IMG/VR virus record: IMGVR_UViG_3300025846_000034
Location: 1-29,548 of that record
From: a virus
DNA: 29,548 nucleotides
Reading direction: 5' to 3' (one strand)
Of the stretch, positions 45 to 14,869 are shown one piece after another. The notes under the pieces were generated by a model. That model saw only the letters and a list, made by a program, of their open reading frames with translations, was not told the origin of the DNA and searched no databases. The position numbers were made by a program, and so were the translations under genes. The number at the start of each line of letters is the position of its first letter. The first letter of the stretch is position 1.

Positions 45-382
45 TTCTTCGTCGCCATGAGCAGTTCCTTGCACCGCTGCTTGATGGCAGGGTCACGGTA
101 GAGCGACGCAGCCCACTCGATGTAGGTCCGGTCGGTCTTGATGACTTCCTCAGGGGTCTTGCCTGGATATGCCTTGCCACCAAAGACTAGCGTGACAGGA
201 GCCCCAGGCTGAACGTCCGGCTCAGTCACCGTCGCCACAGTCGGGCTCTTCTGGTTTGGGTCGCCGCTCTCCGTCCCCTTGACCTTCCCGTTTGCAGGGT
301 TCTGATCACACAGGGCCTCGTGACCATTCCTGGCCTCGACGTCCCAGCAGTCGGTTCCGCAATACTGACACTTCACGTGCAT
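41..382 (-). CDS. Small zinc-finger-like protein downstream of the coat gene
   Basis: This 113-residue protein has no recognised family. Its N-terminus carries a CxxC pair (C5, C8) followed by further Cys and His residues, the pattern of a small zinc-binding knuckle. The middle is rich in Pro, Thr and Lys and probably flexible. The C-terminal part (AYPGKTPEEVIKTDRTYIEW and following) looks helical. The ATG at 382 is chosen because GGGAGG sits 5 bases upstream; a longer reading would need a TTG start inside the hairpin after the coat gene. Position suggests a head-associated or head-completion role, but that is inference only. Confidence 0.7.
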   Translation of the reverse strand: MHVKCQYCGTDCWDVEARNGHEALCDQNPANGKVKGTESGDPNQKSPTVATVTEPDVQPGAPVTLVFGGKAYPGKTPEEVIKTDRTYIEWAASLYRDPAIKQRCKELLMATKK

Positions 383-402
383 AGATACCTCCCATTCATT
401 CA

Positions 403-422
403 AGGGGGCCCGAAGGCCCCCT
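403..422 (-). terminator. GC-rich hairpin with UUCG tetraloop after the coat gene
   Basis: On the minus strand an 8-bp perfect stem, AGGGGGCC with GGCCCCCT, is closed by a TTCG loop, giving the very stable C(UUCG)G tetraloop. It starts 11 bases after the coat stop codon. No uridine run follows, so it may be a weak terminator or a 3' stabiliser of the coat message rather than a full intrinsic terminator. Confidence 0.6.
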
Positions 423-433
423 CATTCTTAGAG

Positions 434-1552
434 CTAGTCAGAGATGAAGCGCTCCGCCATGCGAGGATCGAGAACCTTGACGCCGTACAGGATCTCGAAG
501 AGCATGGTGTCGATGTGGTTCGTGGTGTCGCGCTCATAGGTGAGCATCACGTTCAGCCCGTTGGAGAACAGGACCTTGCTGGGGCAAGCCTGTGAGGGAG
601 CTTCGGGAACCGAGACCATGGCGATGGCGTTCTTGTGGAAGGCCAGGGAGGTCGTCTTGCCCGAGGTCACGACGGTTTCGCCGGTGATGGCCTTCGCGCC
701 GGAGATGGCAATCTGGATGCCGGGGGCGAAGTAGATAGTCTGACCGTTCGCGGTCTGGGTGGCATCGGCGGTCAGTGTGTAGACCTGGGTGTCGCCCGCA
801 ATGGTGAATGTGTACCCATGGGGCAGAAGCCCGACGGTCGCGTCCGTGTCGGTGACGGCCATGGAGGTAGCGCCGAGAGCGACAGGAGTGGGCGTCGAGG
901 CGCCGGTCAGAGAACCTGCCAGCGTGCCTTCGGTCGCGACCTGCTGCGACATGGCGATGTCGAAGCCCATAGCCCGTTCGAAGAGGCCATTGGCGACGGC
1001 GTCCGTGTTCCCGCGGTTGGCCAGCGAGGCAATCGCGTCGATGGACATGTACTTCGCGTAGGACATGGGGTCAAGGACAAGCGCCCGCTGAGACGTGGGC
1101 ACCTTGCGGGTCGAGAGATCCGCGCTCAGGAGAGCGAGGTCGGCAAGCACAGCGGTCGCGCTCTGTTCCCGGACGTACGGGATGTCGCGGGCGAGTGCCA
1201 TGAGGTTGGTGTCGACCTTCTCCGCAATGGCACGGACGGCGGGAATGATGATCTGCTCGTTGAAGTCCTTGATCTTCAGCGAGGCGTCTTCGGCGGTGTA
1301 GGCGACCAGGACGCCATCGCGGTGGTCGATCTTGAGCGAGATACTGGATTCGGTCACGCCCTGAACGGTCATGCCCGCCTGAACAGGCTCGGCGGTGAAC
1401 GTGGCCGGGCGCTTCACCGTGATGGTGTCGCCGACCTTGACGAACTCCTTGCTGAACCCGCGGTGGACAAGGTTGCCCATGACCAGAGCGGACTCCAGCT
1501 GCATCAGGAACTCGTTTGCTACAACAGTAGGGGTAATGAACACATTAGGCAT
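434..1552 (-). CDS. Major capsid (coat) protein, P22 gene 5 type
   Basis: This 372-residue protein is the likely major coat protein, HK97-fold, of the phage P22 coat family. Support: an N-terminal MPNVFITPTVVANEFLMQLE segment typical of these coats, then a GDTITVKRPATF strand region, a long helical stretch around 95-150, and a C-terminus ending in LYGVKVLDPRMAERF, the usual last strand of the family. Residues about 205-300 form a Thr/Gly/Ala-rich beta insertion that could play the part of the P22 I-domain, though placement is uncertain. AGGAGG lies 10 bases upstream of the ATG and overlaps the scaffold stop. Gene order portal, head protein, scaffold, coat agrees. Confidence 0.88.
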   Translation of the reverse strand: MPNVFITPTVVANEFLMQLESALVMGNLVHRGFSKEFVKVGDTITVKRPATFTAEPVQAGMTVQGVTESSISLKIDHRDGVLVAYTAEDASLKIKDFNEQIIIPAVRAIAEKVDTNLMALARDIPYVREQSATAVLADLALLSADLSTRKVPTSQRALVLDPMSYAKYMSIDAIASLANRGNTDAVANGLFERAMGFDIAMSQQVATEGTLAGSLTGASTPTPVALGATSMAVTDTDATVGLLPHGYTFTIAGDTQVYTLTADATQTANGQTIYFAPGIQIAISGAKAITGETVVTSGKTTSLAFHKNAIAMVSVPEAPSQACPSKVLFSNGLNVMLTYERDTTNHIDTMLFEILYGVKVLDPRMAERFISD

Positions 1553-1566
1553 AGTTTAGACGCCTC

Positions 1567-2172
1567 CTAAGCGTCAGGGTGTGCTGTCCTCCATGCGCGG
1601 TACTGCTCTGGGGTCATACCGTCGACCTCAGCCGCGGAAGGATTGGTAATACCTCCACCGGCTCCCATACGGTATCCGGAACCGGTCGGTGCTACGAGAT
1701 ACGCTTTGGCTTTGAGTAGTTCGTCGACAGCCTCTTTGGCCCCGGTCACTTTGCCGTCTGCTTCGATCTTGACCTTGGACTTGTCGATCAAGGCAACGAC
1801 CGCCTCAGGATCGACAGCCCCAGCAGTGTGAGCTGCTGCGAGGACGGCATTGGTGATCTGTGCCTGCTGCACGGCGGTCTTGAGGCTCGTCAGCTCGGCG
1901 TCCTTGGTAGCAGCAAGCTCTTTGAACTTGCCTTGCTCTGCCAGGGCTGCTTCGTCGGCTGTCTTCTTGTCGCTGGCGATCTTGTCGAGCTGTGCCTGCC
2001 TCTCGTCTGCCTTCTTCTCGGCAGCTACAGCTCTCACATCCATCTCGTGAAAGCGCTCGTAGGGGATCGTCGCCTCATGCTGCTTCTCTTCGACGCCTGT
2101 CTCCGTTTTTACGACCGTCGTCGTGGTGTCGGCTGCTTTCTCTTCGCCTGGTGCAAAGTTCCTTACCATCAT
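1567..2172 (-). CDS. Phage scaffolding protein (coiled coil)
   Basis: A 201-residue, highly charged protein directly before the coat gene, the classic place for a scaffold. Residues about 37-105 are a predicted coiled coil rich in Ala, Lys, Glu and Gln (DERQAQLDKIASDKKTADEA and onward). A second helical part (about 125-160) follows, and a Gly-rich linker leads to a short C-terminal tail (MTPEQYRAWRTAHPDA) that could contact coat. The start is the first of two ATG codons, with AAGGAG 6 bases upstream. Scaffolds guide procapsid assembly and then leave or are cleaved. The family is assigned by composition and position, not by a sharp motif. Confidence 0.78.
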   Translation of the reverse strand: MMVRNFAPGEEKAADTTTTVVKTETGVEEKQHEATIPYERFHEMDVRAVAAEKKADERQAQLDKIASDKKTADEAALAEQGKFKELAATKDAELTSLKTAVQQAQITNAVLAAAHTAGAVDPEAVVALIDKSKVKIEADGKVTGAKEAVDELLKAKAYLVAPTGSGYRMGAGGGITNPSAAEVDGMTPEQYRAWRTAHPDA

Positions 2173-2213
2173 GTCAGTCTCCTTTTACGTCTTAACGCCG
2201 ACGCGGCGAAGTC

Positions 2214-2465
2214 TTACGAACGGTTGTTTGCATTGCTTGATCCCTTCAGTAAATCGAGTCTGCCTTCCCCCAGGACGTCGCCCGACCTGCACAGGCGGGC
2301 CTCTGCGTCGAACGCTCGGTTGCGCCACGTATTCAGTTCGTCCGAGAGCTTCAGATAGGCAGCCATCGGAACGCTTCCCTGCGGTGGCGGCAGCAGGCCC
2401 TTCGCCTGATTCTGCTTCGCCTGCTCTGCTTGCCGGGCGCGGAAGGCGATCATCTTCTCGGTCAT
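2214..2465 (-). CDS. Small hypothetical protein between head protein and scaffold
   Basis: An 83-residue protein not recognised by family. The first 20 residues are a basic, Gln/Ala-rich helix (MTEKMIAFRARQAEQAKQNQ), followed by a Pro-rich turn and a second helix with a probable amphipathic face (AAYLKLSDELNTWRNRAFDA). Its start overlaps the stop of the head morphogenesis gene as ATGA, so it is probably coupled to it. Its location in the head cluster suggests a minor capsid or assembly factor, by position only. Confidence 0.65.
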   Translation of the reverse strand: MTEKMIAFRARQAEQAKQNQAKGLLPPPQGSVPMAAYLKLSDELNTWRNRAFDAEARLCRSGDVLGEGRLDLLKGSSNANNRS

Positions 2466-3265
2466 AGTTGCTTCAATGCCGCGATCATCTCGTCGGCGCT
2501 CGGTAATACGTCATTCCAGCTGTCCACGCAGAAGGGGTGATACGGTGGCAAATCTGCGCCTTCCTTGTCCACGATGATCCTTGTCCCCGGAGCTCCGATG
2601 GCAGCGGCACAGATCTCACACGTCGGGTCGCCGTCGTCGCCACGCACGAGCTCCACCTTCGAGATGAAGGGCATGGCATCCGTGATGGCCTTGCGGTCAC
2701 AGGTCCACGCCGTGTTGACCTCGTTGACATACAGCCTCTTGACGTTGAAGGCCAGGTTGTCCGTTCCCTTCTGGGTGAGTGACGCGGCGAGCTTGTCCTC
2801 AACCTGCTTGAACGACCAGCCCTCGTTGACGGACTGTGTGATCACGTCCGTGATGGTGTGCTGCGCCCCGTCGGCATAGTTCCAGAGGGCCTTCGAGAGC
2901 GAGAACCCTTCCGTCTCTCTCCACTTCTTGACTTCGGCCAGGGCGACGGAATCGAACCCGCCGCCGAGGATATAGCCAAGCGCCTGCTGCCACGGGGCAG
3001 GAAGGGCGATAGGATACTGGGCGAGATACACCTTGTAGCTCTCTGCCTGGTACTTGTCGGCCAGGGCGAGCACCTGCTTGACGAGGCTGTCGCACATCCG
3101 GACGCCCTGAATGGCAGCCCACGAGGTGAGCGCGTCCAAGGCGGTCCGGCCCGTCTTCGTGGTCAGCAGCGCGCCACCTTGCTTCGCCAGCGCAGAGGCC
3201 TGCTCCACGTAGGCGTTCACGTAGGCTTGTGTATGCTGTTCAGCGATGTTGGCGAGTTCGTTCAC
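2462..3265 (-). CDS. Head morphogenesis / minor head protein (SPP1 gp7, Mu gpF-like)
   Basis: A 267-residue protein of the SPP1 gp7/Mu F group, which binds the portal and enters the procapsid. The C-terminal domain shows the family pattern: a helical region with NVKRLYVNEVNTAWTCDR, then DPTCEICAAAIG and LPPYHPFCVDSW, whose Cys and His residues resemble the metal-binding site of this family. The N-terminal half is helical. The start is GTG at 3265, overlapping the portal TAG stop, with GGAG 4 bases upstream. The order terminase, portal, this gene, scaffold, coat is conserved among SPP1-like head modules. Confidence 0.85.
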   Translation of the reverse strand: MNELANIAEQHTQAYVNAYVEQASALAKQGGALLTTKTGRTALDALTSWAAIQGVRMCDSLVKQVLALADKYQAESYKVYLAQYPIALPAPWQQALGYILGGGFDSVALAEVKKWRETEGFSLSKALWNYADGAQHTITDVITQSVNEGWSFKQVEDKLAASLTQKGTDNLAFNVKRLYVNEVNTAWTCDRKAITDAMPFISKVELVRGDDGDPTCEICAAAIGAPGTRIIVDKEGADLPPYHPFCVDSWNDVLPSADEMIAALKQL

Positions 3266-4623
3266 TAGGCTCCGATGTTCGGCAGCTTGAAGATGGACGT
3301 CGCTGCCTGCCGCTGTTCTTCCTGCCGCTCAGCGATGATCTGGTCGATCTGCGTCTGGTTCATGCCCTGCCTGCGCAGGAGCTCAGCCTGCGAGATGGCA
3401 CCGGCGGCATAGAGCTTGAGGTCGGTGTCGATGTTACTCTGGACAAACGGCTCTTCCCACTCGACGTGCACCGGGATGATGTTCTGGGTTCGCACGAGTA
3501 GGATGAGTTGGAACACCCGCGCCCAGGCAGAACCGAGGGTGGTCTGTGCCTCATAGACCTTGTCGATGAGTGGCCCGCTCATTTCCTGCATTGCGACGCC
3601 GGAGGGGGCCGCTTTCGGGTCCAGGTAACTCATGGGAGTAGCCGTCACGCGTGCCAGGTGGTCGATACGCTTGTCCACGGAAAGCCACATGTCGGCCATG
3701 ATCTGCGGCGGGATAACGGTGAGCGATGCCTTCTCGTTGTCTAGCATCCACGCGCCCCACACTTCCCGGGAGAGGCCGTCTGGGTTCTTCTTCAGGAACT
3801 CGTCACTGTCGATGCCAAAAACCGCCACTTGCTGTCCGCCGTTGAAGTACGAGCGGATCATCGCGTCCTGGACCAGGCGGTTGATGTCGTTCTGGATAGG
3901 CAGCGCGTTCTCCAGTTCACTGGTCCCGAAGGCCGACAAGCCGATCTTGTTGCGGAAGTGGACGACCGGGATGACGTCGAGGTCGTTCTTGACGATGCCT
4001 TCCAGGCCGTCGAACATCCAGTCATGCCAGGCGTTGCCTTCACCTGATACGCTGTATTCCCGATGGACGGTCTTGGCGGTCATGGTATCGCGACGAACGA
4101 CGGGCTTCCCCACGAACATCTTGCCGAGTTCCTCTTCGTTCCACTGATGCACACACCGAATCGGCTTGAGCTTGTCGGCGGGCGAGTAGGTCATGTCGAT
4201 GTCCTGAGATGCCAGCACGCGCACAAAGGCATGCCCCGTCTTCTTGCCGAGCTCGTCATATTCCGGCCAGACGACCATGAAGCCGTCGCCATCAATGCCC
4301 GTCGTGCGGTGGATCTCCGTGCTCTGCAGTTCCAGCTGGTTGTACTCGTATTCTTCGGTCAGGATCGCCTGATCGGCGTCTGTCCCGCCTGTATAGCTCT
4401 TCAGGTCCAGCTTGGCAACCATCGCGTCGACCACCGCCGCGCAGAGGTTGGTCCGGATGCCCAGCCGGCCGGCGAGTTCCGCCTGAATCTTGAGTGGCAG
4501 ATAAACCCGATACATGCCCTCATAGGCGTTCTCGTAGAGGGCAATGCGGGACTTGCCGCGCTGAACGGCCAGGGCTTCGCTGCGACTAAACGACTGCTCG
4601 ATGACGTCGACTGTCTCAAACAT
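3265..4623 (-). CDS. Portal protein, SPP1 gp6-like
   Basis: A 452-residue portal protein, forming the ring at one capsid vertex through which DNA is packaged and leaves. The N-terminal region (RLGIRTNLCAAVVDAMVAKL), the following GIDGDGFMVVW segment, and the later GTSELENALPIQNDINRLVQ and AAPSGVAMQEMSGPLIDKV stretches match the gp6-type portal family; length is also usual. The ATG at 4623 is chosen because GGAGGG lies just upstream; the frame is open further, but that would extend far into the terminase gene. With this start it overlaps the terminase stop by only 8 bases. Confidence 0.9.
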   Translation of the reverse strand: MFETVDVIEQSFSRSEALAVQRGKSRIALYENAYEGMYRVYLPLKIQAELAGRLGIRTNLCAAVVDAMVAKLDLKSYTGGTDADQAILTEEYEYNQLELQSTEIHRTTGIDGDGFMVVWPEYDELGKKTGHAFVRVLASQDIDMTYSPADKLKPIRCVHQWNEEELGKMFVGKPVVRRDTMTAKTVHREYSVSGEGNAWHDWMFDGLEGIVKNDLDVIPVVHFRNKIGLSAFGTSELENALPIQNDINRLVQDAMIRSYFNGGQQVAVFGIDSDEFLKKNPDGLSREVWGAWMLDNEKASLTVIPPQIMADMWLSVDKRIDHLARVTATPMSYLDPKAAPSGVAMQEMSGPLIDKVYEAQTTLGSAWARVFQLILLVRTQNIIPVHVEWEEPFVQSNIDTDLKLYAAGAISQAELLRRQGMNQTQIDQIIAERQEEQRQAATSIFKLPNIGA

Positions 4624-6199
4624 TCCGCCCTCCATGGCTCTGTCTCTGTGCGTTGGCCTGGGTGTAGCACCCGTCGGCAGTGTCGTACAGGTCGTCATGC
4701 GCTCCGACACCGAGCACGCTCATCTCGTCGAGGAAGGCCTCGTTCCACGGCCCTTCGACGATGCAGACGTTCCCCATCTCGGCGGCAGCCAGGAACGCAG
4801 CACCGCGCTCGAACTTGTTGCCCGTGACCTTGTCGCCGTGGAAGTCATAGCCAGGGAGAACATGGCGGGCGTAGTTGTCGATGGTGTTCACACCCGATGA
4901 CCCAGGCTCCTGCTCCATCCAGATGGCGAGGTGCGTCTTCCGCGCCAGGACATACTCCGTGTCCAGCTGGGCGCACTGCTTGACCAAGGCCTCGACATAC
5001 ATGGGGCTCAGGCGATCGCGCGTCATATGCAGGATGTAGAACACGCCCTCGAGCATGCCACCCAGGCACGACGCGGTGTAGTCCGGGTCCTTGCCGGGCC
5101 GCACTTCGGTGGCAGCGAGATCCCAGCGGCGAATGAGCTGCTTCACGGCAGCGGGCGCAGCGGGCACGATCTTGAACCACTCGCGCTTCGCCAGGGCCCC
5201 TTCACGCGGGACCGGGTTCTGCTGGTACTGAGCTGAATAGCCATAGGAACCGAGACGTTCCTTCGCGGCAGCCAGTTCGTCAGGGCCTTCGCGTTCCGGC
5301 CAGAGCAGGTCGCCTTCCTTACGCTCAACGACGTCGCCGGACAGCGGGAAGATCATGCGCTCGTCGTGTTCGGCGGTCGTGGGGATGGTCAGGAACGTCC
5401 AGTCGTCGTGTTGGCGCGTTGCTTGGATATGGCCAATGAGGTCCTGGGTATGAAGCCGCTGCATGATGACGACAATGGCGTCCTCCTTCTTGTTGTCGAG
5501 GCGGTCGTAGAAGCTGCGGTCGAAGAAGGTGTTGGCAGCGTCGCGGTAGGCCTCGCTGTCTCCATGGACGGCAGCGACAAGATCGTCCGCTACGAGGAAG
5601 TTGCCACCGAAACCGGTCACGTTCGACGCAACGGTCATAGCGCGCATGACGCCCATTGCCGTGTTGGAGTATTCCGTCTTGAGGTTGTTGTCGCCCGCCA
5701 GCTGGACCTTGTCGCCCCAGCGCTCTGTGTACCAAGGCGAGCTGAGGATGGCACGGCGGTCAAGGGAGTGCTTCGTGCTCAGCGTCTCAGAATGACTCGC
5801 GAACAGGAAGCGTGCGCCGGGCTTCTGTGTCCAGTGCCAGGTCGGCCACATGATGGACACGAGGGTGGACTTCATGCAACGTGGCTCGATCTCGATTGCA
5901 AGGCGCCTGATCTGATGCATGCTGACTGCCTGCAGATGTTCGCAGATATAGCCGATGTGCCAGTTGTCGATATAGTCGGTGCTCGGATTGATGATCGGCC
6001 AGGCGCGGGCAGTGAACTCGGACAGCGACCGTCCGCAGAGTTCGGCTTCGATCGCCGGGGCATTCTCGACGAGGAACTTCAGAGCCGCAGAGTTATCAAT
6101 CTCCGGTAACTTCCGTTTGCGGAGGTTCAGCGTCGGCTGCACCCCGCTCTGCAAGCGTGTTCCATTTTTCGCAGCATAAATATTCGGGGCGGGTATCAT
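4616..6199 (-). CDS. terL: Terminase large subunit (ATPase and nuclease)
   Basis: A 527-residue DNA-packaging motor. The ATPase half has a deviant Walker A (EPRCMKST, about 105-112), a Walker B (FLVADDL, about 201-207) and a motif III-like MQRLH (246-250). The nuclease half has RWDLAAT with a metal-binding Asp at 360, an acidic region near 428-432, and DDLYDTADG (502-510) supplying the last acidic residues. It docks on the portal encoded next. The Walker A lacks the usual glycines, as seen in several phage terminases. The start has only a weak AGG nearby; about 70 bases separate it from the small subunit gene. Confidence 0.95.
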   Translation of the reverse strand: MIPAPNIYAAKNGTRLQSGVQPTLNLRKRKLPEIDNSAALKFLVENAPAIEAELCGRSLSEFTARAWPIINPSTDYIDNWHIGYICEHLQAVSMHQIRRLAIEIEPRCMKSTLVSIMWPTWHWTQKPGARFLFASHSETLSTKHSLDRRAILSSPWYTERWGDKVQLAGDNNLKTEYSNTAMGVMRAMTVASNVTGFGGNFLVADDLVAAVHGDSEAYRDAANTFFDRSFYDRLDNKKEDAIVVIMQRLHTQDLIGHIQATRQHDDWTFLTIPTTAEHDERMIFPLSGDVVERKEGDLLWPEREGPDELAAAKERLGSYGYSAQYQQNPVPREGALAKREWFKIVPAAPAAVKQLIRRWDLAATEVRPGKDPDYTASCLGGMLEGVFYILHMTRDRLSPMYVEALVKQCAQLDTEYVLARKTHLAIWMEQEPGSSGVNTIDNYARHVLPGYDFHGDKVTGNKFERGAAFLAAAEMGNVCIVEGPWNEAFLDEMSVLGVGAHDDLYDTADGCYTQANAQRQSHGGRNV

Positions 6200-6269
6200 A
6201 ACGCGACCTGCAGACCGCTATCCATGCGGCGTACTCCTGCGGAATACGAACATCGGAACACGAAGGGCG

Positions 6270-6836
6270 TCACGATTTCCCCGTCACTTTGGCAACTAAT
6301 CCGAGAGCAGACGCCAGGTCGGACATGGACGCCTTGCTGAGGTCGACCTTGAGGTTCCCCTCCGGAGGCTTGTCACCGAGTGCCACTTTGCCAACGTCCT
6401 GGGCGATGCGAACCGCCTGTGCAATGTCCTTGGCAGCCCGCTGGAGTACCACTTGCTTTCCTTCCCTGTCTAGGGTGATCTGCCCCTTCAGCTCGTCGTC
6501 GACCAACGTAAGGATTTTGTGTGCATATTCCAGCAAGGTCGTGTCAAAGGACGCACCTTCGCTGGCAACGAGTTCCGACTTCTTTTCGGTCGTCTGCTCG
6601 TCGACACGGGCGAGGAACCGCTCACGCTTGATGTCCCATTGCTCCTTGGTCGCCTGCCGGCTCACGACCTCGCGGGCGGTGCCATAACTGAGGGCAAGCT
6701 GGGTCAAGGTTACGGCAGGTGCCGCCGTGATGAATTCGTGACTCATCCGTGACCAATCGATGGTATTGCGAGTATGCTTGACAGGCGCTCTCTGCGCCTT
6801 GGTTGACTTCTTCGGGCTGATCGGGAGCTTAGACAT
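6270..6836 (-). CDS. terS: Probable terminase small subunit
   Basis: A 188-residue protein placed directly before the large terminase. After a basic N-terminal tail, residues about 40-75 (VTLTQLALSYGTAREVVSRQ and following) form a helix-turn-helix typical of small terminases, which bind the packaging site. The middle is helical and acidic, suited to oligomerisation, and the C-terminus (SMSDLASALGLVAKVTGKS) may contact the large subunit. The family was recognised from the helix-turn-helix plus gene order. A purine-rich AAGGGG lies about 10 bases before the ATG. Confidence 0.8.
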   Translation of the reverse strand: MSKLPISPKKSTKAQRAPVKHTRNTIDWSRMSHEFITAAPAVTLTQLALSYGTAREVVSRQATKEQWDIKRERFLARVDEQTTEKKSELVASEGASFDTTLLEYAHKILTLVDDELKGQITLDREGKQVVLQRAAKDIAQAVRIAQDVGKVALGDKPPEGNLKVDLSKASMSDLASALGLVAKVTGKS

Positions 6837-6857
6837 CGCAAGCCCCTTGCTTCGACA

Positions 6858-6983
6858 TCACGGGACGATAACCGGCCGAACCGTGAGCATCTGTGACAAG
6901 GGGCCTGCAGTAGAAGGAGGGCATGTGATGGCACGTAAACCACGCGACATCATATCAGTGTCTGTGCCGTACCCTCGTTTCAT
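6858..6983 (-). CDS. Possible 41-residue peptide gene heading the packaging block
   Basis: An ATG at 6983 lies 10 bases after the GGAGG of the block-start element and opens a 41-codon frame ending in TGA at 6858, shortly before the small terminase. The product (MKRGYGTDTDMMSRGLRAIT...) is basic and has no recognised domain. It may be a real small protein or a translated leader that carries ribosomes toward the terminase genes. The strong initiation signal is the only real support; the composition is not clearly that of a protein. Confidence 0.4.
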   Translation of the reverse strand: MKRGYGTDTDMMSRGLRAITCPPSTAGPLSQMLTVRPVIVP

Positions 6984-6993
6984 CGCGCTGCGA

Positions 6994-7016
6994 CCTCCTA
7001 GATCGGTTGTGCACCC
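6994..7016 (-). promoter_or_regulatory. Block-start element, copy 1 (packaging/head block)
   Basis: The minus strand reads GGGTGCACAACCGATCTAGGAGG, sharing a core (CACAACCGATCTAGGAGG) with five other places in the window, each at the head of a gene block. It contains a perfect AGGAGG ribosome binding site. The extension GGGTGCAC is shared only with the copy at 20785-20807. Confidence 0.75.
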
Positions 7017-7018
7017 TC

Positions 7019-7046
7019 ATGTTATGTTGTTGTAGTTGTTGTTCAA
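7019..7046 (-). promoter_or_regulatory. Candidate sigma70-type promoter for the packaging/head genes
   Basis: The minus strand has TTGAAC (7041-7046), a 16-base spacer and TAACAT (7019-7024), each matching 4 of 6 consensus bases. The start site would fall near the GTGCAC of the block-start element. The spacer and leader are rich in CAA repeats and so should be unstructured. The -35 overlaps the AP2 gene stop codon. Moderate fit only. Confidence 0.4.
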
Positions 7047-7567
7047 CTTTCAGCGACTGTTACTAATCCTGCAGGGAAGTTCAGGTGGACACGGCTGCCA
7101 ACCATGCCCTTGTTCGCGTACTCGCGGGCGATGCGGTCGTGCTCCCTGGCCGCGGTCTCCGGGTCGTTCACGTAGCGGCTGGTGACGACATGCGTCTTAT
7201 GAGTCTTCGGGTTCGTCGTATTGACCACTGCCCGCCACTTGCCCTTGCCAACGGGCGCGATGCCAAAATAGGTATGCTTCGGCGCCAATGGCTGAATGGG
7301 GCGGACATACTTGGCGTGAGCAGACGGCAGACACTCTATCCTCTCGAGGACCGTCCCATTCCATAAGCGGTACATGCTCCGGGTACCATCGGCCGTCTGT
7401 AGAATGACCTTGCCCTCCATGATGCGCAGATCGGCTACGACATCCGTGAGCAGATTCAAGAATCCGAGGACCGGTCCCGACAGTTCGCATAACGTGTGTG
7501 ACGCGCTCAATATGACATATCCTCCAGCCGCGAGCGCTGCGGCCACATGCTCTCCAGTGTTTGTCAT
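7043..7567 (-). CDS. AP2-domain DNA-binding protein without a nuclease domain
   Basis: A 174-residue protein whose C-terminal part, about residues 98-167, is an AP2 domain: YFGIAPVGKGKWRAVV, then a strand pair, then AAREHDRIAREYANKG and a terminal LNFP. In phages this DNA-binding fold is usually joined to an HNH nuclease in homing endonucleases. Here residues 1-95 show no HNH motif and are of unknown role, with a hydrophobic N-terminus (VAAALAAGGYVILSAS). It may be a homing endonuclease remnant or a domesticated transcription factor. GGAAGGA lies upstream of the ATG. It sits between early and packaging genes, where a late-gene switch could act. The 127 bases beyond it (7568-7694) hold no clear gene. 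Confidence 0.8.
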   Translation of the reverse strand: MTNTGEHVAAALAAGGYVILSASHTLCELSGPVLGFLNLLTDVVADLRIMEGKVILQTADGTRSMYRLWNGTVLERIECLPSAHAKYVRPIQPLAPKHTYFGIAPVGKGKWRAVVNTTNPKTHKTHVVTSRYVNDPETAAREHDRIAREYANKGMVGSRVHLNFPAGLVTVAES

Positions 7568-7694
7568 GTGCTGTTCCTTCCCGGCGCCAAACGCCAGCGT
7601 TCCTCGTAGTGCCCTTTTTATCCTTCCTTCGGCGCAGCGCCTTTCATTGGCCGGTTTTCCATTGCGTGGCGCTGCGGTCGTACTGCCCTGCCTT

Positions 7695-10019
7695 CTATTT
7701 TATGCGGATGGGCGAAACCCCCGCTCGAGGAACGTACTGATCTCCTTCAGACATCCGGCGTCGTAAAGGGTGTCTGGGCTTGGGAAAAAGGCGTAGCGTC
7801 ACCAGGTCGCCCACCTTGACCAGATCCGGGACGTCCCAATACTTTGGACCGTGCTTCGGCCGGAGCGCTTCCGGAAGGGCGAGCTCGGCAGTCTGGCGCT
7901 TTTTCATCATCTGTACGTCCAGTTCGGCAGCCAGTTCATCGAGCTCAGGAGTCGGCCCGTCGGGTGTGGCCACCTTCGGTGCGTACCATTCGCAAGCATA
8001 CTGCCCCGTCTCCATCGGGTAGCCGGGGACACCGCACGTGCTGTCGCAATCGGGCGTTCCATGCTTGCAGCTCTGACAGAGACAAGGCCCGCCTTCGCCA
8101 TTGTATCGGAGCTCGCATGCTGTCTCAGGGCATGGGCCTTGACCAGGTGCGTAGATGTCCGCGGGGAAGGTGGCTTTGTCGATCCAGTGTTCGCAGTCCT
8201 TGATGATCGCCGGGTAGGGCTTGTGGTGATGCGCATGCTCGAGGGTACAGATGGAGCAGATGTGGTAGGGCTCGTCACCGTTCATCGCACAATTCTGATA
8301 GGCTCGGCCACAGGTAAGACACTTGCACTCACCACAGAATTGCCGCACGTACCGCTGAAGAGTGACCAGGTGCTGTTGTTCTGCGGGCAACTGACTCTCT
8401 GTATTCCCCAGGACGTCGACCGTGAGAGCAGCCTTGCGCCCACAGAGAGTTGTCGGCTGGAGCTCGTCCTTTCCCAGGCATTGGTCACATCCGCAAGGAG
8501 GACAGTGCGCCCACTCCTTGTCAGTATAGTTCAGATGCGCCTGATTCAGTCCGCAGGTCTCGCAGTCACAGTGGCTGCAGATATCGGCGTTGCTCCCAGG
8601 GAGAGGATTGTTGTCATAGTCTGCGCGGGTGAGCTTCGGCTGCTTCTTTGCCTTGACGGGCTTCGGTGACTCAGAAGTTGGTTCTGTTTTCTTCGCCTTG
8701 GTCGATCTTGCGACTTTTGCCTCTGCGTCGTCCTTTGCACGGTCATCCAGCAGATCGGCTGGCATGTCTCCCTGTCGAACGCAGCTTTTCAGGAAGTCGA
8801 GTCCAATCAGCCAGGGACAGAGTGCGCCACTACGAAGACCAGCACAGTCATCGCGACAGGAGTGATGCTTTCCGCAATTTGCCAACTGCCATTTATCCAG
8901 AGGATCAAGCTCGAGCTGATCTGGAGACATGAGTTGGCATGATCTGTCCTTAACCATTGCAGCTTTTTTCCCATACTCAGCCCAGGTGACATGGATAGAC
9001 AAATCACGAGGACCGCCATGGCTGATACCTGTGACGTATCCAAAACCGACACCGCCGGGTGCAAGGTCATCACGGAACTTCACGCGGTCACCTCTGTGCA
9101 GCGCCGGTGTGGCTGGCTTCTTCGCCTTGGCAGGCTTCGCGGGTACTACAGCAGGCTCAGGTGACGTATGCTCAGCAGGCCGTGAGTAGGAGCAGGGAGT
9201 GCCACGTTGGTCTGAACAGCCAGTACAGAGACCACCGTTCTGCTTGCTCACAACCAGATGACAGCAGAGAGTACCGCCTTCTTGCAGCGCAGGATCCTCG
9301 TAGACACGTATTCCACGCGCTCCTTTCTCTATGAAGCTTCGCGCCAACGGCAAGTCTCCTGCCGCCTTCCGCGCCGCGTCGACCGCTACCATGTCAGCGG
9401 CGAATTCTGACTCTTTGCGGACCGGCTTGTCTGTCGATATGAACTCTTCAACAAGACGTCCCTCCAACTCATATCGTCCCCATGTTTCGTGTCCATAACG
9501 GATCAGCGTTGGGTGTTCGACTGTGGGTTTGCCATCCAGTTGTACGACACTGGGTTCCTCGGTTGGCTTCTTTGTAGGTTCAATAGGATTCAGATCGCAT
9601 CGAACCCTGGGCGCCCACACCCACTCCTTTCGGAGATCGCAGACGTGATCACATTTCTTGCAAGCAGCCTCCGATTTCCACGAGACAGGCCCGCTGTAGT
9701 CAGGACAGCCAGTGATGCTGATGGGTCGATTGCACAAGCGGTAGCGAACGCCTCCGCGTAGATCCGTCTCACCGTCCTTGCATTCGTCGTAACGGTCGCA
9801 GGCCATACACATGCAATTGACGCAGGCCGGGAACTTGCCTTTTACACAGCGGAGGAGGTAATAGACCTTGCTGTTCTTGTCGAGAGCCTCCGTCTCACAG
9901 GTTTCGTACTGCGGGCAATCCTGATGACAGACGCAACGGTCCGAAGGTACCTTGACCTGGTCAATAGGTTCAGGGAACAGACTGCCCGCCCAGCCATCCG
10001 CGACAGGACCGCGTCTCAT
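7695..10019 (-). CDS. Large cysteine-rich protein of unknown function (774 residues, 52 Cys)
   Basis: This is not a family I recognise. Its 52 cysteines fall in three clusters: residues 29-141, 252-413 and 481-676. The exact pattern C-x2-C-x-C-x2-C occurs four times (starting at 66, 481, 506 and 562), with a fifth partial copy at 646-658, implying multiple zinc or Fe-S sites. A basic Ala/Lys/Pro linker (about 293-307) leads to a probable SH3-like or KOW-like barrel (308-370, HRGDRVKFRDDLAPGGVGFG), and another such linker covers 441-462. The C-terminus has a second short VKVGDLVTLRLF strand motif. There is no signal peptide or membrane segment. Its start overlaps the Sm-like gene as ATGA, the last gene of the VRR-NUC/3D/MazG block. 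Confidence 0.85.
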   Translation of the reverse strand: MRRGPVADGWAGSLFPEPIDQVKVPSDRCVCHQDCPQYETCETEALDKNSKVYYLLRCVKGKFPACVNCMCMACDRYDECKDGETDLRGGVRYRLCNRPISITGCPDYSGPVSWKSEAACKKCDHVCDLRKEWVWAPRVRCDLNPIEPTKKPTEEPSVVQLDGKPTVEHPTLIRYGHETWGRYELEGRLVEEFISTDKPVRKESEFAADMVAVDAARKAAGDLPLARSFIEKGARGIRVYEDPALQEGGTLCCHLVVSKQNGGLCTGCSDQRGTPCSYSRPAEHTSPEPAVVPAKPAKAKKPATPALHRGDRVKFRDDLAPGGVGFGYVTGISHGGPRDLSIHVTWAEYGKKAAMVKDRSCQLMSPDQLELDPLDKWQLANCGKHHSCRDDCAGLRSGALCPWLIGLDFLKSCVRQGDMPADLLDDRAKDDAEAKVARSTKAKKTEPTSESPKPVKAKKQPKLTRADYDNNPLPGSNADICSHCDCETCGLNQAHLNYTDKEWAHCPPCGCDQCLGKDELQPTTLCGRKAALTVDVLGNTESQLPAEQQHLVTLQRYVRQFCGECKCLTCGRAYQNCAMNGDEPYHICSICTLEHAHHHKPYPAIIKDCEHWIDKATFPADIYAPGQGPCPETACELRYNGEGGPCLCQSCKHGTPDCDSTCGVPGYPMETGQYACEWYAPKVATPDGPTPELDELAAELDVQMMKKRQTAELALPEALRPKHGPKYWDVPDLVKVGDLVTLRLFPKPRHPLRRRMSEGDQYVPRAGVSPIRIK

Positions 10020-10219
10020 TCCACAACCTCAAGCGTCCCAAGGCAGCGGGCGAGACGGCTTGTCTGGATCGTGAACTGGTCGCCGTTGTTCGCCGTCAGC
10101 TCGACCCATTGCTGCATCCCGTTGCCGACGACCACGCCCTTGAAGATGCGACCGTCGACGAGAACGAGCTCCACTTTCTGACCGGGATTCAGAGTGCGGA
10201 TGACTGTGTTGTTGGTCAT
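10016..10219 (-). CDS. Small Sm-like/SH3-like barrel protein
   Basis: A 67-residue protein whose strand pattern (GQKVELVLVDGRIFKGVVVG, then WVELTANNGDQFTIQTSRLA) fits a single small beta barrel of the Sm/Hfq or SH3-like type; the DGR-F-G turn is typical of the Sm1 motif. Such proteins bind RNA or act as assembly adaptors. No Hfq-specific RNA-binding motif is seen, so this is a fold-level guess. The ATG at 10219 overlaps the previous stop as ATGA; an upstream GTG is also possible. Its own stop overlaps the start of the cysteine-rich protein, so the two are coupled. Confidence 0.65.
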   Translation of the reverse strand: MTNNTVIRTLNPGQKVELVLVDGRIFKGVVVGNGMQQWVELTANNGDQFTIQTSRLARCLGTLEVVE

Positions 10220-10386
10220 GGCTGCCCCCACCACAAACGTGTACGCGCAATGTTTTCTTCCTTCGTGAACGCGGCTTGGAACTTCTCATCTATCTCTCGC
10301 TGTTCTGTCGTCCGCCTTTTCTTCTTCTCCGCTGTGACGGCTCTCCTCTGACTGTTACGGATTGCCCTGCTTTCTGCGGTCGTCAT
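10216..10386 (-). CDS. Small basic 56-residue protein
   Basis: A 56-codon frame fits exactly between its neighbours: its ATG overlaps the MazG-like stop as ATGA and its stop overlaps the Sm-like start as ATGA. The product is very basic and helical (MTTAESRAIRNSQRRA, then AEKKKRRTTEQREIDEKF) and ends in WWGQP. No family is recognised; the charge suggests nucleic-acid binding. Double coupling makes it a likely real gene despite its size. Confidence 0.65.
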   Translation of the reverse strand: MTTAESRAIRNSQRRAVTAEKKKRRTTEQREIDEKFQAAFTKEENIARTRLWWGQP

Positions 10387-10679
10387 GGCTTTGCCTCAGC
10401 GCATGCAGCGTTCACCCTCATTCGTTGCTCTAACCGCTCGAGCTTGGCAAGTCTGGCTGCGTAAATCTCAGGCCCCCACCGCAGCCGCATCTGGTCGACC
10501 ATAAGGCTCACGTCTGCAAGTTCCTCTATGAGACTCTTGGGAGACTGTTCGCGCCCACCAAGGAACTTTGCAGCAGCTTGGACGAGCTCTCCACTCTCTT
10601 CAATCACCATCATCAGCTGAGCATCGAAGCCCCAAGTGTCGAGGGCTTCCTGCAAGACTGCCTGCTCCAAGGGGGTCAT
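10383..10679 (-). CDS. MazG-like nucleotide pyrophosphohydrolase
   Basis: A 98-residue all-alpha NTP pyrophosphatase of the MazG-like group. The metal-binding helices are visible: EESGE at 27-31, with a following Lys/Phe-rich helix, and EELAD at 52-56. Such enzymes hydrolyse (d)NTPs to monophosphates; phage versions are proposed to clean nucleotide pools or lower ppGpp. The size fits single-domain MazG-like proteins. Its ATG overlaps the stop of the 3D-domain gene as ATGA. Substrate cannot be told from the sequence. Confidence 0.85.
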   Translation of the reverse strand: MTPLEQAVLQEALDTWGFDAQLMMVIEESGELVQAAAKFLGGREQSPKSLIEELADVSLMVDQMRLRWGPEIYAARLAKLERLEQRMRVNAACAEAKP

Positions 10680-11230
10680 TTCTTCACCCCGGGAACATAT
10701 AGCACTTCCACGCGCACGTTACGTCTACGACCCCAGTGCGCGGCCTCATGTGTCGACCAGAGGAACACGTCCAGCTTGTTGCCTTTGATGGCGCCCCCGG
10801 TGTCGATGACGGTGCAGGGGTCTCCGTTGTTGTAGTTTGGGATGATGACGATGGACCCGAACGGGAGCACGCGAAGGTCTGCAGCAATGCCGCCGACATA
10901 GACGCGCTTGCCGCTGGCCGTTGTCATGGGGTCGCCATCGCACTCGGCAACGGTCGGACTATAGGCCGTGATCTCCATGGAGAGAACCATGACGGGTTCT
11001 GAGTATCGCGTCGTTACCTTGTCGATGGGAAGGGCTACGGCTGCCAGTCGACGAGCACTACGGAAGTTCGTGATGTCGCCCGCAGATGCCGTCTTTGGTG
11101 CCATCAACATCACCATCGCCCACACCGCAAGAGCAACAAGGCAACAAGTCAGAATGGCTATGAATATTGCGGCAAACAAGTCTGGTTCATCGTAGAAAAC
11201 ATTGCGAGTCCTGCGAGACGCCCACTTCAT
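10676..11230 (-). CDS. Membrane-anchored 3D-domain protein
   Basis: A 184-residue protein with one transmembrane segment at about 19-44 (LFAAIFIAILTCCLVALAVW), then a linker and a C-terminal 3D domain (about 84-178), a double-psi beta-barrel related to RlpA and the lytic transglycosylase MltA. The three aspartates are D118, D143 (VIDTGGAIKG) and D154 (LDVF). Host relatives act on or bind the cell wall. Finding it with early rather than lysis genes is unusual; it may alter the envelope during infection. The ATG at 11230 overlaps the nuclease stop as ATGA; a GTG 24 bases upstream is less likely. Confidence 0.85.
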   Translation of the reverse strand: MKWASRRTRNVFYDEPDLFAAIFIAILTCCLVALAVWAMVMLMAPKTASAGDITNFRSARRLAAVALPIDKVTTRYSEPVMVLSMEITAYSPTVAECDGDPMTTASGKRVYVGGIAADLRVLPFGSIVIIPNYNNGDPCTVIDTGGAIKGNKLDVFLWSTHEAAHWGRRRNVRVEVLYVPGVKK

Positions 11231-11661
11231 GGTGTCACCTGCCGAGCGTGCCACCAGGCTTCGAGTTCTTCCACCTCACGGATGACCAGATAGATAGCGC
11301 CGGCTGATTCGAAGCGTTCCTGCCATTCCTTTTGTGGATCACTCTGGTCGGTTGTCGGACGCTTCATTTCGATGCCAATGAGGCGGCCGGTACCCGGTTC
11401 GATTGCCAGGATGTCGGGCAGACCCTTGACGCCGTAGCGGATGAACGATCTGCCGATCGTGCCGTTTTTCCGGGTGTATTCGTGCGTGGCTGCGCCGGTA
11501 TTCTGCCTCCAGAATACGAAATCTTGCATAGCGAGCCATGCGAGGACAGCTGCCTGTCGTGGGGTTTCCTTGCGGGTCTTGCGAGCGTACGCTTCCGGGT
11601 CAAGAACCTCGTTCGAACAATCTGATACCGGCTTGCGCCGTCGTTCTGCTGCGATAGTCAT
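11227..11661 (-). CDS. VRR-NUC domain nuclease
   Basis: A 144-residue PD-(D/E)XK nuclease of the VRR-NUC family. The core is GVKGLPDILAIEPGTGRLIG, with D83, then IEMKR giving E98 and K100, and Q110 in the following helix. The preceding FWRQNTGA and the arginine-rich IGRSFIRYG are also typical. Phage members process replication or recombination intermediates such as branched DNA. It heads a coupled block and starts 7 bases after the GGAGG of a block-start element. A Cys/Lys-rich N-terminal tail of about 30 residues precedes the domain. Confidence 0.88.
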   Translation of the reverse strand: MTIAAERRRKPVSDCSNEVLDPEAYARKTRKETPRQAAVLAWLAMQDFVFWRQNTGAATHEYTRKNGTIGRSFIRYGVKGLPDILAIEPGTGRLIGIEMKRPTTDQSDPQKEWQERFESAGAIYLVIREVEELEAWWHARQVTP

Positions 11662-11668
11662 ATGCGAT

Positions 11669-11686
11669 CCTCCTAGATCGATTGTG
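11669..11686 (-). promoter_or_regulatory. Block-start element, copy 2 (VRR-NUC block)
   Basis: The minus strand reads CACAATCGATCTAGGAGG, followed by ATCGCAT and the ATG. CGATC and GATCG on either side of TAGGAG could form a small stem with the ribosome binding site in the loop. The HNH gene stops a few bases upstream, leaving no room for a separate promoter. Confidence 0.75.
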
Positions 11687-11691
11687 TGCTG

Positions 11692-11930
11692 CTAGTTACT
11701 CGCTTGTGTCAGTCTCTTCGCGTTCCATTCTTCCAGCGTCTTGTTGCCCTTGGAACTGTTACAGTGGCCGCACGCCGGCACGACGTTGTCCTTCGAGTGT
11801 TTTCCTCCTTTCGACAGCGGGATGACGTGATCTAGAGTGAGCTTTGCTTCCTTGTCGCAGTAGGCACAATGCCCGTCAGCCTGGGCGAGGATCGCAAGCC
11901 ACTCCGTGGACGTCAGCATTTCATCGAGAG
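11692..11930 (+). repeat. Direct repeat shared with 19507-19745 (HNH gene 3' ends)
   Basis: The 3' ends of the two HNH genes are nearly the same at DNA level, differing by scattered single-base changes; the first 60 bases of each can be aligned without gaps. Both copies run in the same direction, about 7.8 kb apart, and could recombine. The extents are estimated by eye. Confidence 0.8.
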
Positions 11931-12303
11931 GCGTGTTGGCGTATTTGAGGGAACGACGCCTCACGTCCTTCAACCTAGACACCATTGGATGAGAACGCCC
12001 GTATTCTGCCTGGCTCTCTGCCCTCTTTTCTGGATGAGTCTTACGGTATATTGCGCCGTACTCTGCGTCCTTTCCGGGATGAGTCTTACGGTATTTAGCC
12101 AAAGACTCGATGATTTTGACTGAGTTGGCTTCATAGTATTTAGCGCGATCCTTGCGGCGTTTCTCTGGGTTGGCTTTGTTCCATTTAGCGTGAGCCTCGC
12201 GTCGAATGATCTGTCCACATTCAACGCAATACTTCTGACGGTTGTTTGTCGGCTGGTATTCCTTCCCGCATCGCTGACAGACCTTCGTTTTGTAGTTGCC
12301 CAT
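11692..12303 (-). CDS. Free-standing HNH homing endonuclease A
   Basis: A 203-residue protein of homing-endonuclease type. It begins with a zinc knuckle (VCQRCGKEYQPT, then KYCVECG), continues with about four repeats of an HPEK/Y-rich helix of about 16 residues (KYRKTHPGK, IYRKTHPEK), and ends with an HNH domain: CAYC, LTLDHVIPLSKGG, then NVVPACGHCNSSKGN. It is a paralogue of the HNH gene at 19507-20190. ATG at 12303 is preferred; a GTG 9 bases upstream is possible, since AAGGA is badly spaced for either. It has its own candidate promoter and interrupts the early gene blocks, so it is probably a mobile insertion. Confidence 0.88.
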   Translation of the reverse strand: MGNYKTKVCQRCGKEYQPTNNRQKYCVECGQIIRREAHAKWNKANPEKRRKDRAKYYEANSVKIIESLAKYRKTHPGKDAEYGAIYRKTHPEKRAESQAEYGRSHPMVSRLKDVRRRSLKYANTPLDEMLTSTEWLAILAQADGHCAYCDKEAKLTLDHVIPLSKGGKHSKDNVVPACGHCNSSKGNKTLEEWNAKRLTQASN

Positions 12304-12341
12304 GTCTCGCACTTATCCTTTCTTATCCTGTTTGACCTGTT

Positions 12342-12443: not shown

Positions 12444-12635
12444 CTATTTAACTGACGAACTCTTGACCTGAAAGTCCACGCGGTCTGCCCATTCCGCCTT
12501 CTTCCCCTTGTTCCATTGGCGCACCGGTCTCAGATAACCCACGACCCTGCTGTACACTTCGCAGGGCTGACGTTTCGCCGCCGGGATGATGACGCCGTTG
12601 TCCAGGACAAGATCGCCATTGTCGAGCTCTTTCAT
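12444..12635 (-). CDS. Stand-alone NrdD C-terminal (glycyl radical) fragment
   Basis: A 63-residue protein matching the extreme C-terminus of class III anaerobic ribonucleotide reductase NrdD: CEVYSRVVGYLRPV followed by WNKGKKAEWADRVDF. In NrdD the glycine of the RVxGY motif carries the catalytic radical; here that is G33. The rest of the enzyme, including the ATP cone and the active-site cysteines, is absent and no other nrd gene is seen. It may be a spare glycyl-radical part for a host enzyme, comparable in idea to GrcA for pyruvate formate-lyase, or a decayed remnant. AGGAGG lies 4 bases before the ATG and overlaps the previous stop region. Confidence 0.75.
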   Translation of the reverse strand: MKELDNGDLVLDNGVIIPAAKRQPCEVYSRVVGYLRPVRQWNKGKKAEWADRVDFQVKSSSVK

Positions 12636-12647
12636 GTGTCCTCCTAT

Positions 12648-13313
12648 TTAGTCGAACGGCAACGTATCGTCAAGAACATCGGTGGTCAGTCCTGCATAGG
12701 CCAGGGCCAGGGCGTTGATCTGCTCCATGCCGCGTCCGGTGTTGTGATCGTGGCTAACACTTTGGTGCAGTGTATTGGGAATGAACACCCCGTGGTCTAT
12801 GTCCAGGTGGTGAAAATCGCTTCCGGGGAAGTATTGGTTCAGGGGCAAGAAGCCAAGTTCACGGCGCTTGGCCCTCATCTTACGATTGGTCACCATAGTG
12901 CCACCCTTCCATTGCTTTGCACGCTGTTCAGGTGACCAAACGCGCCCCGTCATGATGGCAGACATTTTTGTCCGTGTTTCGAGAGATACCGGACGGCCCA
13001 TTCCCGCTGCAGAGAGTTTTGCACGCCACTCAGGAGAGAACACATGATCCCACGCCACAATAGGCTTTCGGTTAGTTACATACCACGCGGCTGCCAGTTT
13101 TGCGTCGTGCTCTCGGTTCGCCTCATGCCTAAGCCTATTGGTTTCTCTCTTTCTTTCCGGCCCACATTCTGTGCAGTATTGCTGCGTGGGGCCAGCCGGT
13201 TGGTACTCTTTCCCGCAATGCAGGCAGACCTTCGTTTTATAGGTCACATCTGAAAGGTTTGCCACAGAACATCTTGCCCGCTGTTCGTCGGTCATATGGC
13301 TTCCGAGTTTCAT
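12648..13313 (-). CDS. Homing-endonuclease-like protein (zinc knuckle, NUMOD3, His-rich domain)
   Basis: A 221-residue protein. Residues about 25-51 are a zinc knuckle (VCLHCGKEYQPA, then YCTECG) like that of the HNH genes. Two NUMOD3-type repeats follow (SPEWRAKLSAAGMGRP, SLETRTKMSAIMTGR), DNA-binding modules of homing endonucleases. The C-terminus (GFLPLNQYF, FHHLDIDHGVFIPNTLHQS, HDHNTGRGMEQINA) is a His-rich domain shared with two other genes here and is probably a nuclease domain of the His-Me/HNH type. ATG at 13313 overlaps the previous stop as ATGA, with AAAGGA nearby. Confidence 0.78.
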   Translation of the reverse strand: MKLGSHMTDEQRARCSVANLSDVTYKTKVCLHCGKEYQPAGPTQQYCTECGPERKRETNRLRHEANREHDAKLAAAWYVTNRKPIVAWDHVFSPEWRAKLSAAGMGRPVSLETRTKMSAIMTGRVWSPEQRAKQWKGGTMVTNRKMRAKRRELGFLPLNQYFPGSDFHHLDIDHGVFIPNTLHQSVSHDHNTGRGMEQINALALAYAGLTTDVLDDTLPFD

Positions 13314-14121: not shown

Positions 14122-14306
14122 TTTGCCACCGCCTTCTGTGCACCGGCACCGCTCGCTACCAGGGAACGCTCATCGAATGCGCGGCAAATCACTTGTTCGG
14201 CTATCACGCCAGGACGGACCAAACACATCATGGTCTTGCGATGCAGCAGAAAGTTGAAAGTACAGGCCTGATGCTTGCAGACTTCGCAGAGGATGACGCG
14301 CTTCAT
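14118..14306 (-). CDS. Small Cys-containing hypothetical protein
   Basis: A 62-residue protein starting MKRVILCEVCKHQACTF, with a CxxC pair and another Cys five residues on, likely binding zinc. The central part (HRKTMMCLVRPGVIAEQVI) is mildly hydrophobic and the tail is Ala-rich. ATG at 14306 overlaps the stop of the preceding endonuclease-like gene as ATGA, and its own stop overlaps the next start the same way. Function unknown. Confidence 0.7.
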   Translation of the reverse strand: MKRVILCEVCKHQACTFNFLLHRKTMMCLVRPGVIAEQVICRAFDERSLVASGAGAQKAVAK

Positions 14307-14869
14307 GACTGCACCTGACTGAGCCACTGATAGGCGGCTGCGTTGATCTTGTCCATGTTATGCCCCGTGAAGACGTTATGGTAGATACTTCGGTGCACTT
14401 CTTTCGGCACGTAAAGAACGTGCTCCTTATCTAGGTGATGAGCCTCTGCACCATCGAACGGTGCGTTCATCGGCACAAAGCCAAGGACACGACGCTTGGA
14501 CGCATGCTTCCTGAGAGACTCATGGACTTTGTCGGGGTTCTCTGCTCTCCACCGGGCGCAGAGTTCGTTCATCCGTTCTGGATGAGCTAGAGCCCATGCA
14601 CTGGTCTTAGCAAGAACCTTGTCCGGATGTGCATCCGACCACTTCTTGCCCGACGCTTGAGCTTCCTTTCGATGAGTCTCGTGATATGCCTTTCTCGACG
14701 CTCGCGCCTGCTCGTGGTGCTCGTAGTACCATGCCTTCGCTAGAGCTCTCTTCTTCTCGGCATGCTCCGTGGAATACTTCTTGAAATAGGCTCTCATCCC
14801 TTCTCGATGAGCGGCGCGATACTTCTCTTGGTATGCAGCATTGTGAGCATTGACTTCCTCTGTGGTCAT
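14303..14869 (-). CDS. Homing-endonuclease-like protein (HPEK repeats, His-rich domain)
   Basis: A 188-residue protein. Residues about 8-115 are made of Ala/Lys/His-rich helical repeats with an HP(E/D)K flavour (AHPERMNELCARWRAENPDK), like the middle of the HNH genes. The C-terminal 65 residues (RRVLGFVPMNAPF, AHHLDKEHVLYVPKEVHRS, YHNVFTGHNMDKINAAA) are the same His-rich domain found at 12648-13313 and 17629-18333. It lacks both the zinc knuckle and the NUMOD3 repeats. It is coupled to the Bro gene by ATGA. A homing role is inferred from its relatives. Confidence 0.75.
   Translation of the reverse strand: MTTEEVNAHNAAYQEKYRAAHREGMRAYFKKYSTEHAEKKRALAKAWYYEHHEQARASRKAYHETHRKEAQASGKKWSDAHPDKVLAKTSAWALAHPERMNELCARWRAENPDKVHESLRKHASKRRVLGFVPMNAPFDGAEAHHLDKEHVLYVPKEVHRSIYHNVFTGHNMDKINAAAYQWLSQVQS

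Follow-up and report, generated by a model that had tools for sequence, protein, structure and literature searches.

What does a phage do with a protein of 774 residues, 52 of them cysteines? The gene that raises this question lies in a fragment of a tailed-phage genome, a virus record of 29,548 bases from IMG/VR (IMGVR_UViG_3300025846_000034) that we refer to in full as the window, and that also encodes a terminase, major head protein, portal, ERF, an IstB/DnaC-like ATPase, and an Rv2525c-like lysin. We designated the gene CRP (mosaic Cys-rich protein); relatives on other IMG/VR contigs carry L-numbers.

7695–10019, minus strand: CRP, defined by its open reading frame, its translation, and its relatives.

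A Cys-rich protein of a new family

The CRP reading frame runs on the minus strand from an ATG at 10019 to its end at 7695, and its translation confirms the length and Cys count given by a first-pass annotation of the locus, together with the exact C-x2-C-x-C-x2-C motifs at residues 66, 481, 506, and 562 and a partial C-x-C-x2-C at residue 646. Cysteine makes up 6.7% of CRP against 1.05% (53 of 5026 residues) in 17 other window genes, an enrichment of ~6-fold over the window background (binomial P about 3e-25), and the four CxxCxCxxC motifs compare with a mean of 0.013 and a maximum of 1 in 2000 shuffles of the protein's own residues. As the cysteines fall in residue ranges 29–141, 252–276, 361–413, and 481–676, they form four groups rather than the three clusters described at first. 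The two basic linkers described alongside them are present, as a K/A/P linker at about residues 292–305 and a basic stretch at residues 440–470. The gene had also been called early; what its position shows is a location between replication/recombination genes and terminase genes.

The earlier annotation recognized no family, and this holds: the whole protein, its relatives, and profiles of its modules gave nothing significant in Pfam, PHROGs, NCBIfam, PADLOC, or the PDB, with no confident match to a characterized family. Judged by these searches, CRP is a new family, without a match in the databases searched. Using tblastn, relatives were absent from 50,697 phage records (one chance-level match only) and from plasmids, and two scans of 84,980 species genomes returned none, so that this genome collection offers no host assignment. 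Relatives are found solely on about 16 IMG/VR contigs besides the window, all from one group of uncultured phages. A search of the viral contigs with module profile A3 added a single contig (L021), and rescans with leader DNA gave mostly known contigs; the family therefore appears nearly exhausted in this collection. The best matches of the structural genes indicate no firm host, as the terminase points to a Methanomicrobiales virus (36%) and the portal and lysin point to actinobacterial phages. Elsewhere in the window (12444–12635, minus strand), the C-terminal, glycyl-radical-like end of NrdD is encoded as a stand-alone 63-aa protein (Pfam NRDD, E 5.8e-10), which suggests an anaerobic host; short stand-alone copies likewise occur in L003, L006, and L123.

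A constant leader followed by exchangeable modules

Comparison of all CRP members shows that the protein is a mosaic, in which a conserved leader is followed by exchangeable modules whose arrangement differs between phages. This goes beyond the first-pass annotation, because one sequence cannot show domain shuffling between close relatives. In the window, the parts of the mosaic are the following:

9963–10019, minus strand: leader, residues 1–19 (MRRGPVADGWAGSLFPEPI), present in all relatives with an N-terminus.
9585–9941, minus strand: modules B and C, residues 27–145, 16 Cys, shared with L006 and L007.
9279–9509, minus strand: modules D and E, residues 171–247, Cys-free, both in L017 and D only in L015.
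9105–9146, minus strand: K/A/P linker (core KPAKAKK), residues 292–305.
8895–9113, minus strand: module G, residues 303–375, SH3/KOW-like by eye, a fold without support.
8715–8885, minus strand: module H, residues 379–435 (CGKHHSCRDDCAG...), shared with L007 and L021.
7968–8606, minus strand: module I, residues 472–684, 25 Cys, with three exact CxxCxCxxC motifs and a partial one.

A pool of ~20 recurring modules accounts for the members compared, and 13 proteins, with open frames of 219–774 aa, arrange them in 11 different orders:

Window: A-B-C-D-E-F-G-H-I
L003 joined with L002: A-L-M-N-O-P-I-J-K
L005, L013, and L014: A-T-N-I-J-K
L015: A-B-D-I-J-K
L017: A-D-E-I-J-K
L006: A-B-C-T-U-P-Q
L007: A-B-C-O-P-R-L-H-M-U-P-Q
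L011: A-M-U-P-Q
L012: A-L-S-R-U-P-Q
L021: A-L-S-H-G-U-P-Q
L123 (read by eye): A-B-C-T

Modules G and H stand in opposite order in the window and in L021. Module G had been read as an SH3/KOW-like barrel (about residues 303–375); it does recur as a unit in L021 (82% identical), while the fold itself finds no support in Pfam or the PDB. Modules B and C of the window are about 90% identical to those of L006, a phage with a different terminase type, and B is also found in L015; the Cys array, in turn, is closest to that of L002/L004. Proteins ending in I-J-K occur with type 1 terminases (L002/L003, L004) as well as type 2 (L013–L015, L017, L018), and the same is true for P-Q ends (type 1 in L011; type 2 in L006, L007, and L012). 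The module set is thus independent of terminase type. Several contigs end inside CRP (L002, L003/L019, L004, and L018), which would be consistent with mixed alleles in the sampled populations. A diversity-generating retroelement was considered as the source of variation and dropped, as whole modules are exchanged rather than single positions changed.

The leader, a stretch of 19 residues (MRRGPEVSGWAGSLFPEPI), opens every CRP that has its N-terminus, following the consensus M-R-R-G-P-x-x-x-G-W-x-G-S-L-F-x-E-P-I or a close variant, and scans with it found it confined to the CRP gene neighbourhood. A variant, G-Y-V-x-E-L-F-P, starts small Cys proteins (68–100 aa) encoded in tandem with CRP (L012:5798–6004 and 6996–7295; L123:5096–5356, minus strand), two of which end in VVRVTDRFANGC, resembling the end of the L004 CRP (VVRVVDRSADGC). 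Sliding-clamp-binding motifs contain a Gln; this residue is missing from the leader, and such a role was dropped.

Up to four K/A/P linkers per protein lie between modules. The window linker DNA is up to 94% identical to that of linkers joining different modules in relatives, and this conservation includes wobble positions: the Ala codons GCC and GCG hardly vary among linkers that join different modules, compared with 33% and 25% usage across the window.

Upstream of the leader lies the following gene:

10016–10234, minus strand: "Sm-like" gene, 72 aa from a GTG or 67 aa from an internal ATG.

This gene overlaps the CRP ATG by 4 nt, and an overlap of exactly 4 nt between the CRP start and the stop codon of the preceding gene recurs in 12 of the 13 phages (L123 has a 1-nt gap instead). 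Five kinds of genes provide the overlap: the Sm-like gene (6), a 98-aa gene (2), a 3D-domain gene (2), a C5 cytosine methylase (1), and a small leader protein (1). A constant overlap with varied upstream genes indicates that CRP is a cassette joined at its start codon. The first-pass annotation had coupled CRP to an Sm-like protein. The 4-nt overlap in the window is real; there is, however, no stable partnership, as other kinds of genes take this place in several relatives, and the coupling is thus incidental to the CRP family. The Sm-like gene is conserved in seven contigs, including the window, and lies immediately upstream of CRP in six. Its identity as an Sm protein finds no significant support: neither the window gene nor its relatives matched LSM or Hfq, with no significant match to Sm/LSM/Hfq families, and a profile search of the PDB gave a protease as best match (E 0.05) and an archaeal Sm protein at E 0.95. 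Away from CRP, L006 encodes an 81-aa protein (L006:665–910) whose Hfq match is weak (E 0.0015) and misses the Pfam cut-off. The cytosine methylase lies in L011 (5129–5956; Pfam E 1.3e-19) between the Sm-like gene and CRP, where it provides the 4-nt overlap with the CRP start.

A replaced gene between conserved flanks

The nearest phage to that of the window is L011/L029/L035 (one contig). Their DNA is about 87–92% identical over window positions 1–6290 and 6772–7806, 89% over 10026–10388, and 83% over 10684–11685. Between these flanks, L011 encodes a CRP of 318 aa with other modules, without a nucleotide match to the window CRP upstream of a junction at about 7806. The terminase small subunit (window 6270–6836, minus strand) is mostly different in L011 as well, with 6290–6772 replaced and surrounding genes about 90% identical; CRP is thus not the sole variable gene, and as mosaicism is widespread among phages, an arms race does not follow from variability by itself. 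Unlike the swapped terminase small subunit, CRP has parts that are re-used in new orders. Where both flanks are present, CRP lies between the gene for a 3D-domain protein and the terminase genes, of which there are two types. In L038, about 78% identical to the window in the DNA of the terminase–portal region, the 3D and AP2-like genes are kept and CRP is absent, making CRP dispensable at least there; CRP is an accessory gene.

The 3′ end of the window copy differs from that of its relatives:

7695–7806, minus strand: deletion junction and tail, from about residue 738.
7700–7798, minus strand: remnant (RYAFFPSPDTLYDAGCLKEISTFLERGFRPSA) of a ~70-aa gene, complete in L002, L004, and L011.
7043–7567, minus strand: downstream gene, 174 aa, with a C-terminal half that is AP2-like by eye.

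The proteins of relatives continue after module I with J, about 180 aa long, and end in another Cys module, K. In the window copy, VGDLVT is the last stretch of J; beyond it, the reading frame passes out of register into the remnant of the small downstream gene, so that the last ~36 residues are not a native domain. By this comparison, the window CRP has lost the rest of J and all of K through a deletion. The truncated copy may be in decay, even though the modules it retains appear intact. The 174-aa downstream gene, which has no significant Pfam match, is kept in L011, L004, and the CRP-less L038.

Conserved cysteines and probable metal binding

Within shared modules, dN/dS ranges from 0.08 to 0.20, indicating purifying selection. 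Modules B and C (dN/dS 0.08–0.11) keep 16 of 16 cysteines in two relatives, the module I array keeps 25 of 25 in seven relatives, and module H keeps four of five in L007. An alignment of 24 CxCxxC modules, many of them divergent and each with 7–8 cysteines, contains five invariant Cys columns and two nearly invariant ones, a regular spacing across homologs as found in zinc-finger proteins. Conservation extends to many of the other residues, with a mean column identity of 84% in alignment A2. Invariant cysteines together with purifying selection mark the modules as functional domains that probably ligate metal. The metal binding proposed in the first-pass annotation is supported as far as sequence goes; CRP likely binds metal, and Zn2+ is the most likely candidate. 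AlphaFold2 reached a pLDDT of 30.6 for the Cys array (8 sequences) and 50.2 for a single module (24 sequences), values too low for either model to bear on fold or metal sites.

TGT-type zinc sites consist of CxCxxC plus a distal ligand. As a tentative parallel, all 24 aligned modules have the three invariant cysteines of CxCxxC and one distal Cys; they differ from the TGT type in lacking a family match and in their further cysteines, which suggest a second site per module.

A multivalent adaptor as a possible function

With some hesitation, we favour a reading of CRP as a non-enzymatic, multivalent adaptor, built of metal-binding modules, whose set of targets in the host or in rival elements is changed by module swapping. 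Tandem Cys-ligated (most likely Zn2+) modules and small non-Cys domains, often separated by flexible K/A/P linkers, would hang on a fixed N-terminal docking leader that tethers CRP to one constant partner. Each module would bind as a stable unit that purifying selection maintains, while the set and order of modules would change by recombination, partly at the leader/start-codon overlap and, presumably, at repeated linker DNA. If the modules bind different proteins, of the host or of a competing element, a phage could change its target set by swapping modules, with a role in host takeover or, should host defences be among the targets, in counter-defence. The 11 module orders in 13 proteins, the G/H inversion, and the replaced CRP between conserved flanks argue for the adaptor, as do the restriction of the leader to the CRP neighbourhood, the low dN/dS with retained cysteines, the near-fixed linker codons, the independence of the module set from terminase type, and the CRP-less L038. 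In line with a non-enzymatic role, no catalytic domain was detected in the CRP members scanned (Pfam, PHROG, NCBIfam, PADLOC). Speaking against the adaptor, no module matched a known anti-defence family, PADLOC consisting mostly of defence proteins. More speculatively, CRP may act as a combinatorial plug-board, in which a constant docking leader and exchangeable Cys modules are reshuffled within populations to yield phage-specific sets of host or defence targets.

If the adaptor reading is true, these phages diversify compactly through swaps of whole modules that are themselves under strong purifying selection, rather than through point mutation, and CRP may be a rapidly evolving means by which they act on their hosts. 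The modules would be ready-made small binders, and their targets could reveal the host proteins or defences that these uncultured phages face. Even with a more mundane function, CRP displays clear intragenic mosaicism between phages that are about 90% identical on either side of it.

Alternative explanations

An unlikely alternative is a zinc-finger regulator that binds nucleic acids, either to control late genes or to act on RNA with the Sm-like protein. Late regulators often sit just before terminase genes, and in every relative that has both flanks CRP is found between the replication and terminase genes; in six phages, it overlaps a small beta-barrel-like gene by 4 nt. Phage Mu Com, a zinc finger that acts on RNA, sets a precedent (PMC6483171). 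A module profile also showed weak similarity to retroviral zinc knuckles (E 0.3); this match is non-significant and expected from Cys composition, and was rejected. The earlier annotation, too, had offered a nucleic-acid-bound protein as one reading. However, the Cys array (residues 481–680, 200 residues) contains 25 D/E and 13 K/R, and its net charge of -12 speaks against direct binding of nucleic acids, for which the linkers and Cys-free domains may nevertheless leave room. The upstream partner is not conserved across relatives, CRP is absent from the close relative L038, and the loss and reordering of most of a regulator's domains would be unexpected between phages about 90% identical elsewhere.

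Improbable, in our estimate, is a head-internal or ejected protein, with the leader as a packaging or targeting signal and the variable body entering the cell along with the DNA and acting against host defences. The short fixed N-terminus, the variable body, and the leader on small Cys proteins adjoining CRP would fit, and T4 provides a precedent, with a 10-residue capsid targeting sequence (CTS) on divergent internal proteins, among them IPI, which inhibits type IV restriction (PMC9026906). On the other hand, CRP is encoded apart from the structural genes, the general searches of the window identified no prohead protease, and the acidic array does not resemble the basic T4 internal proteins. 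The leader is, moreover, unrelated to the T4 signal sequence.

We consider it doubtful that CRP serves as a metal store, a metallothionein-like buffer, or a redox/Fe–S carrier for an anaerobic host. The 52 cysteines with their CxC and CxxC motifs, and the stand-alone NrdD protein nearby with its hint of anaerobic life, speak for such a role; storage would, however, need neither ordered modules nor shuffling. Metallothioneins are small, with a very high Cys content and little other conservation, whereas CRP has 774 aa, 6.7% Cys, long Cys-free domains, and many conserved non-Cys residues.

Just as doubtful is a decaying or selfish by-product of recombination, a remnant hotspot fusing small Cys-protein genes without an important function, since the out-of-frame truncation in the window, the absence of CRP from L038, and the HNH genes nearby are set against open frames in 13 phages, low dN/dS throughout the shared modules, and fully kept cysteines in modules B, C, and I.

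Comparison with known systems

By analogy, the putative adaptor is best described as a mosaic kind of phage effector, which would work most like polyvalent proteins in its shuffled architecture and most like T4 internal proteins in its fixed N-terminus and variable body. In phages and conjugative elements, polyvalent proteins unite disparate domains, largely enzymatic and often including a zincin-like peptidase; delivery together with the DNA and a role in host conflict have been proposed for them (Iyer et al. 2017, PMC5512222). CRP resembles them as a multidomain protein of mobile elements with highly variable architectures among related elements and many domains of unknown fold. It differs in that its modules are mostly small Cys units, and several disparate biochemical activities, as in polyvalent proteins, were not found in the members scanned. 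With T4 internal proteins such as IPI, CRP shares a short conserved N-terminus and a divergent body (PMC9026906); these proteins are small, basic, and processed by the prohead protease, whereas CRP is larger, acidic, and Cys-rich. Like Mu Com, CRP would be a phage protein with Cys-ligated zinc, which in CRP is presumed (PMC6483171); as described there, Com is one small finger that binds one mRNA, while CRP has several modules with a different Cys spacing and no sequence match.

Other features of the window

The relative L034 (IMGVR_UViG_3300002179_000015) is 100% identical to window positions 1–7369 and ends at the same base, window position 1, past which other relatives continue. Two HNH endonuclease genes (11692–12312 and 19507–20190, minus strand) have near-identical ends and variable, repeat-like middles, and further HNH/NUMOD-like genes were recognized by eye at 12648–13313, 14303–14869, and 17629–18333. 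Finally, an 857-aa protein with a borderline fn3 match (21536–24109, minus strand) is encoded in the stretch of lowest GC content (44–49% GC in part) and was perhaps recently acquired.
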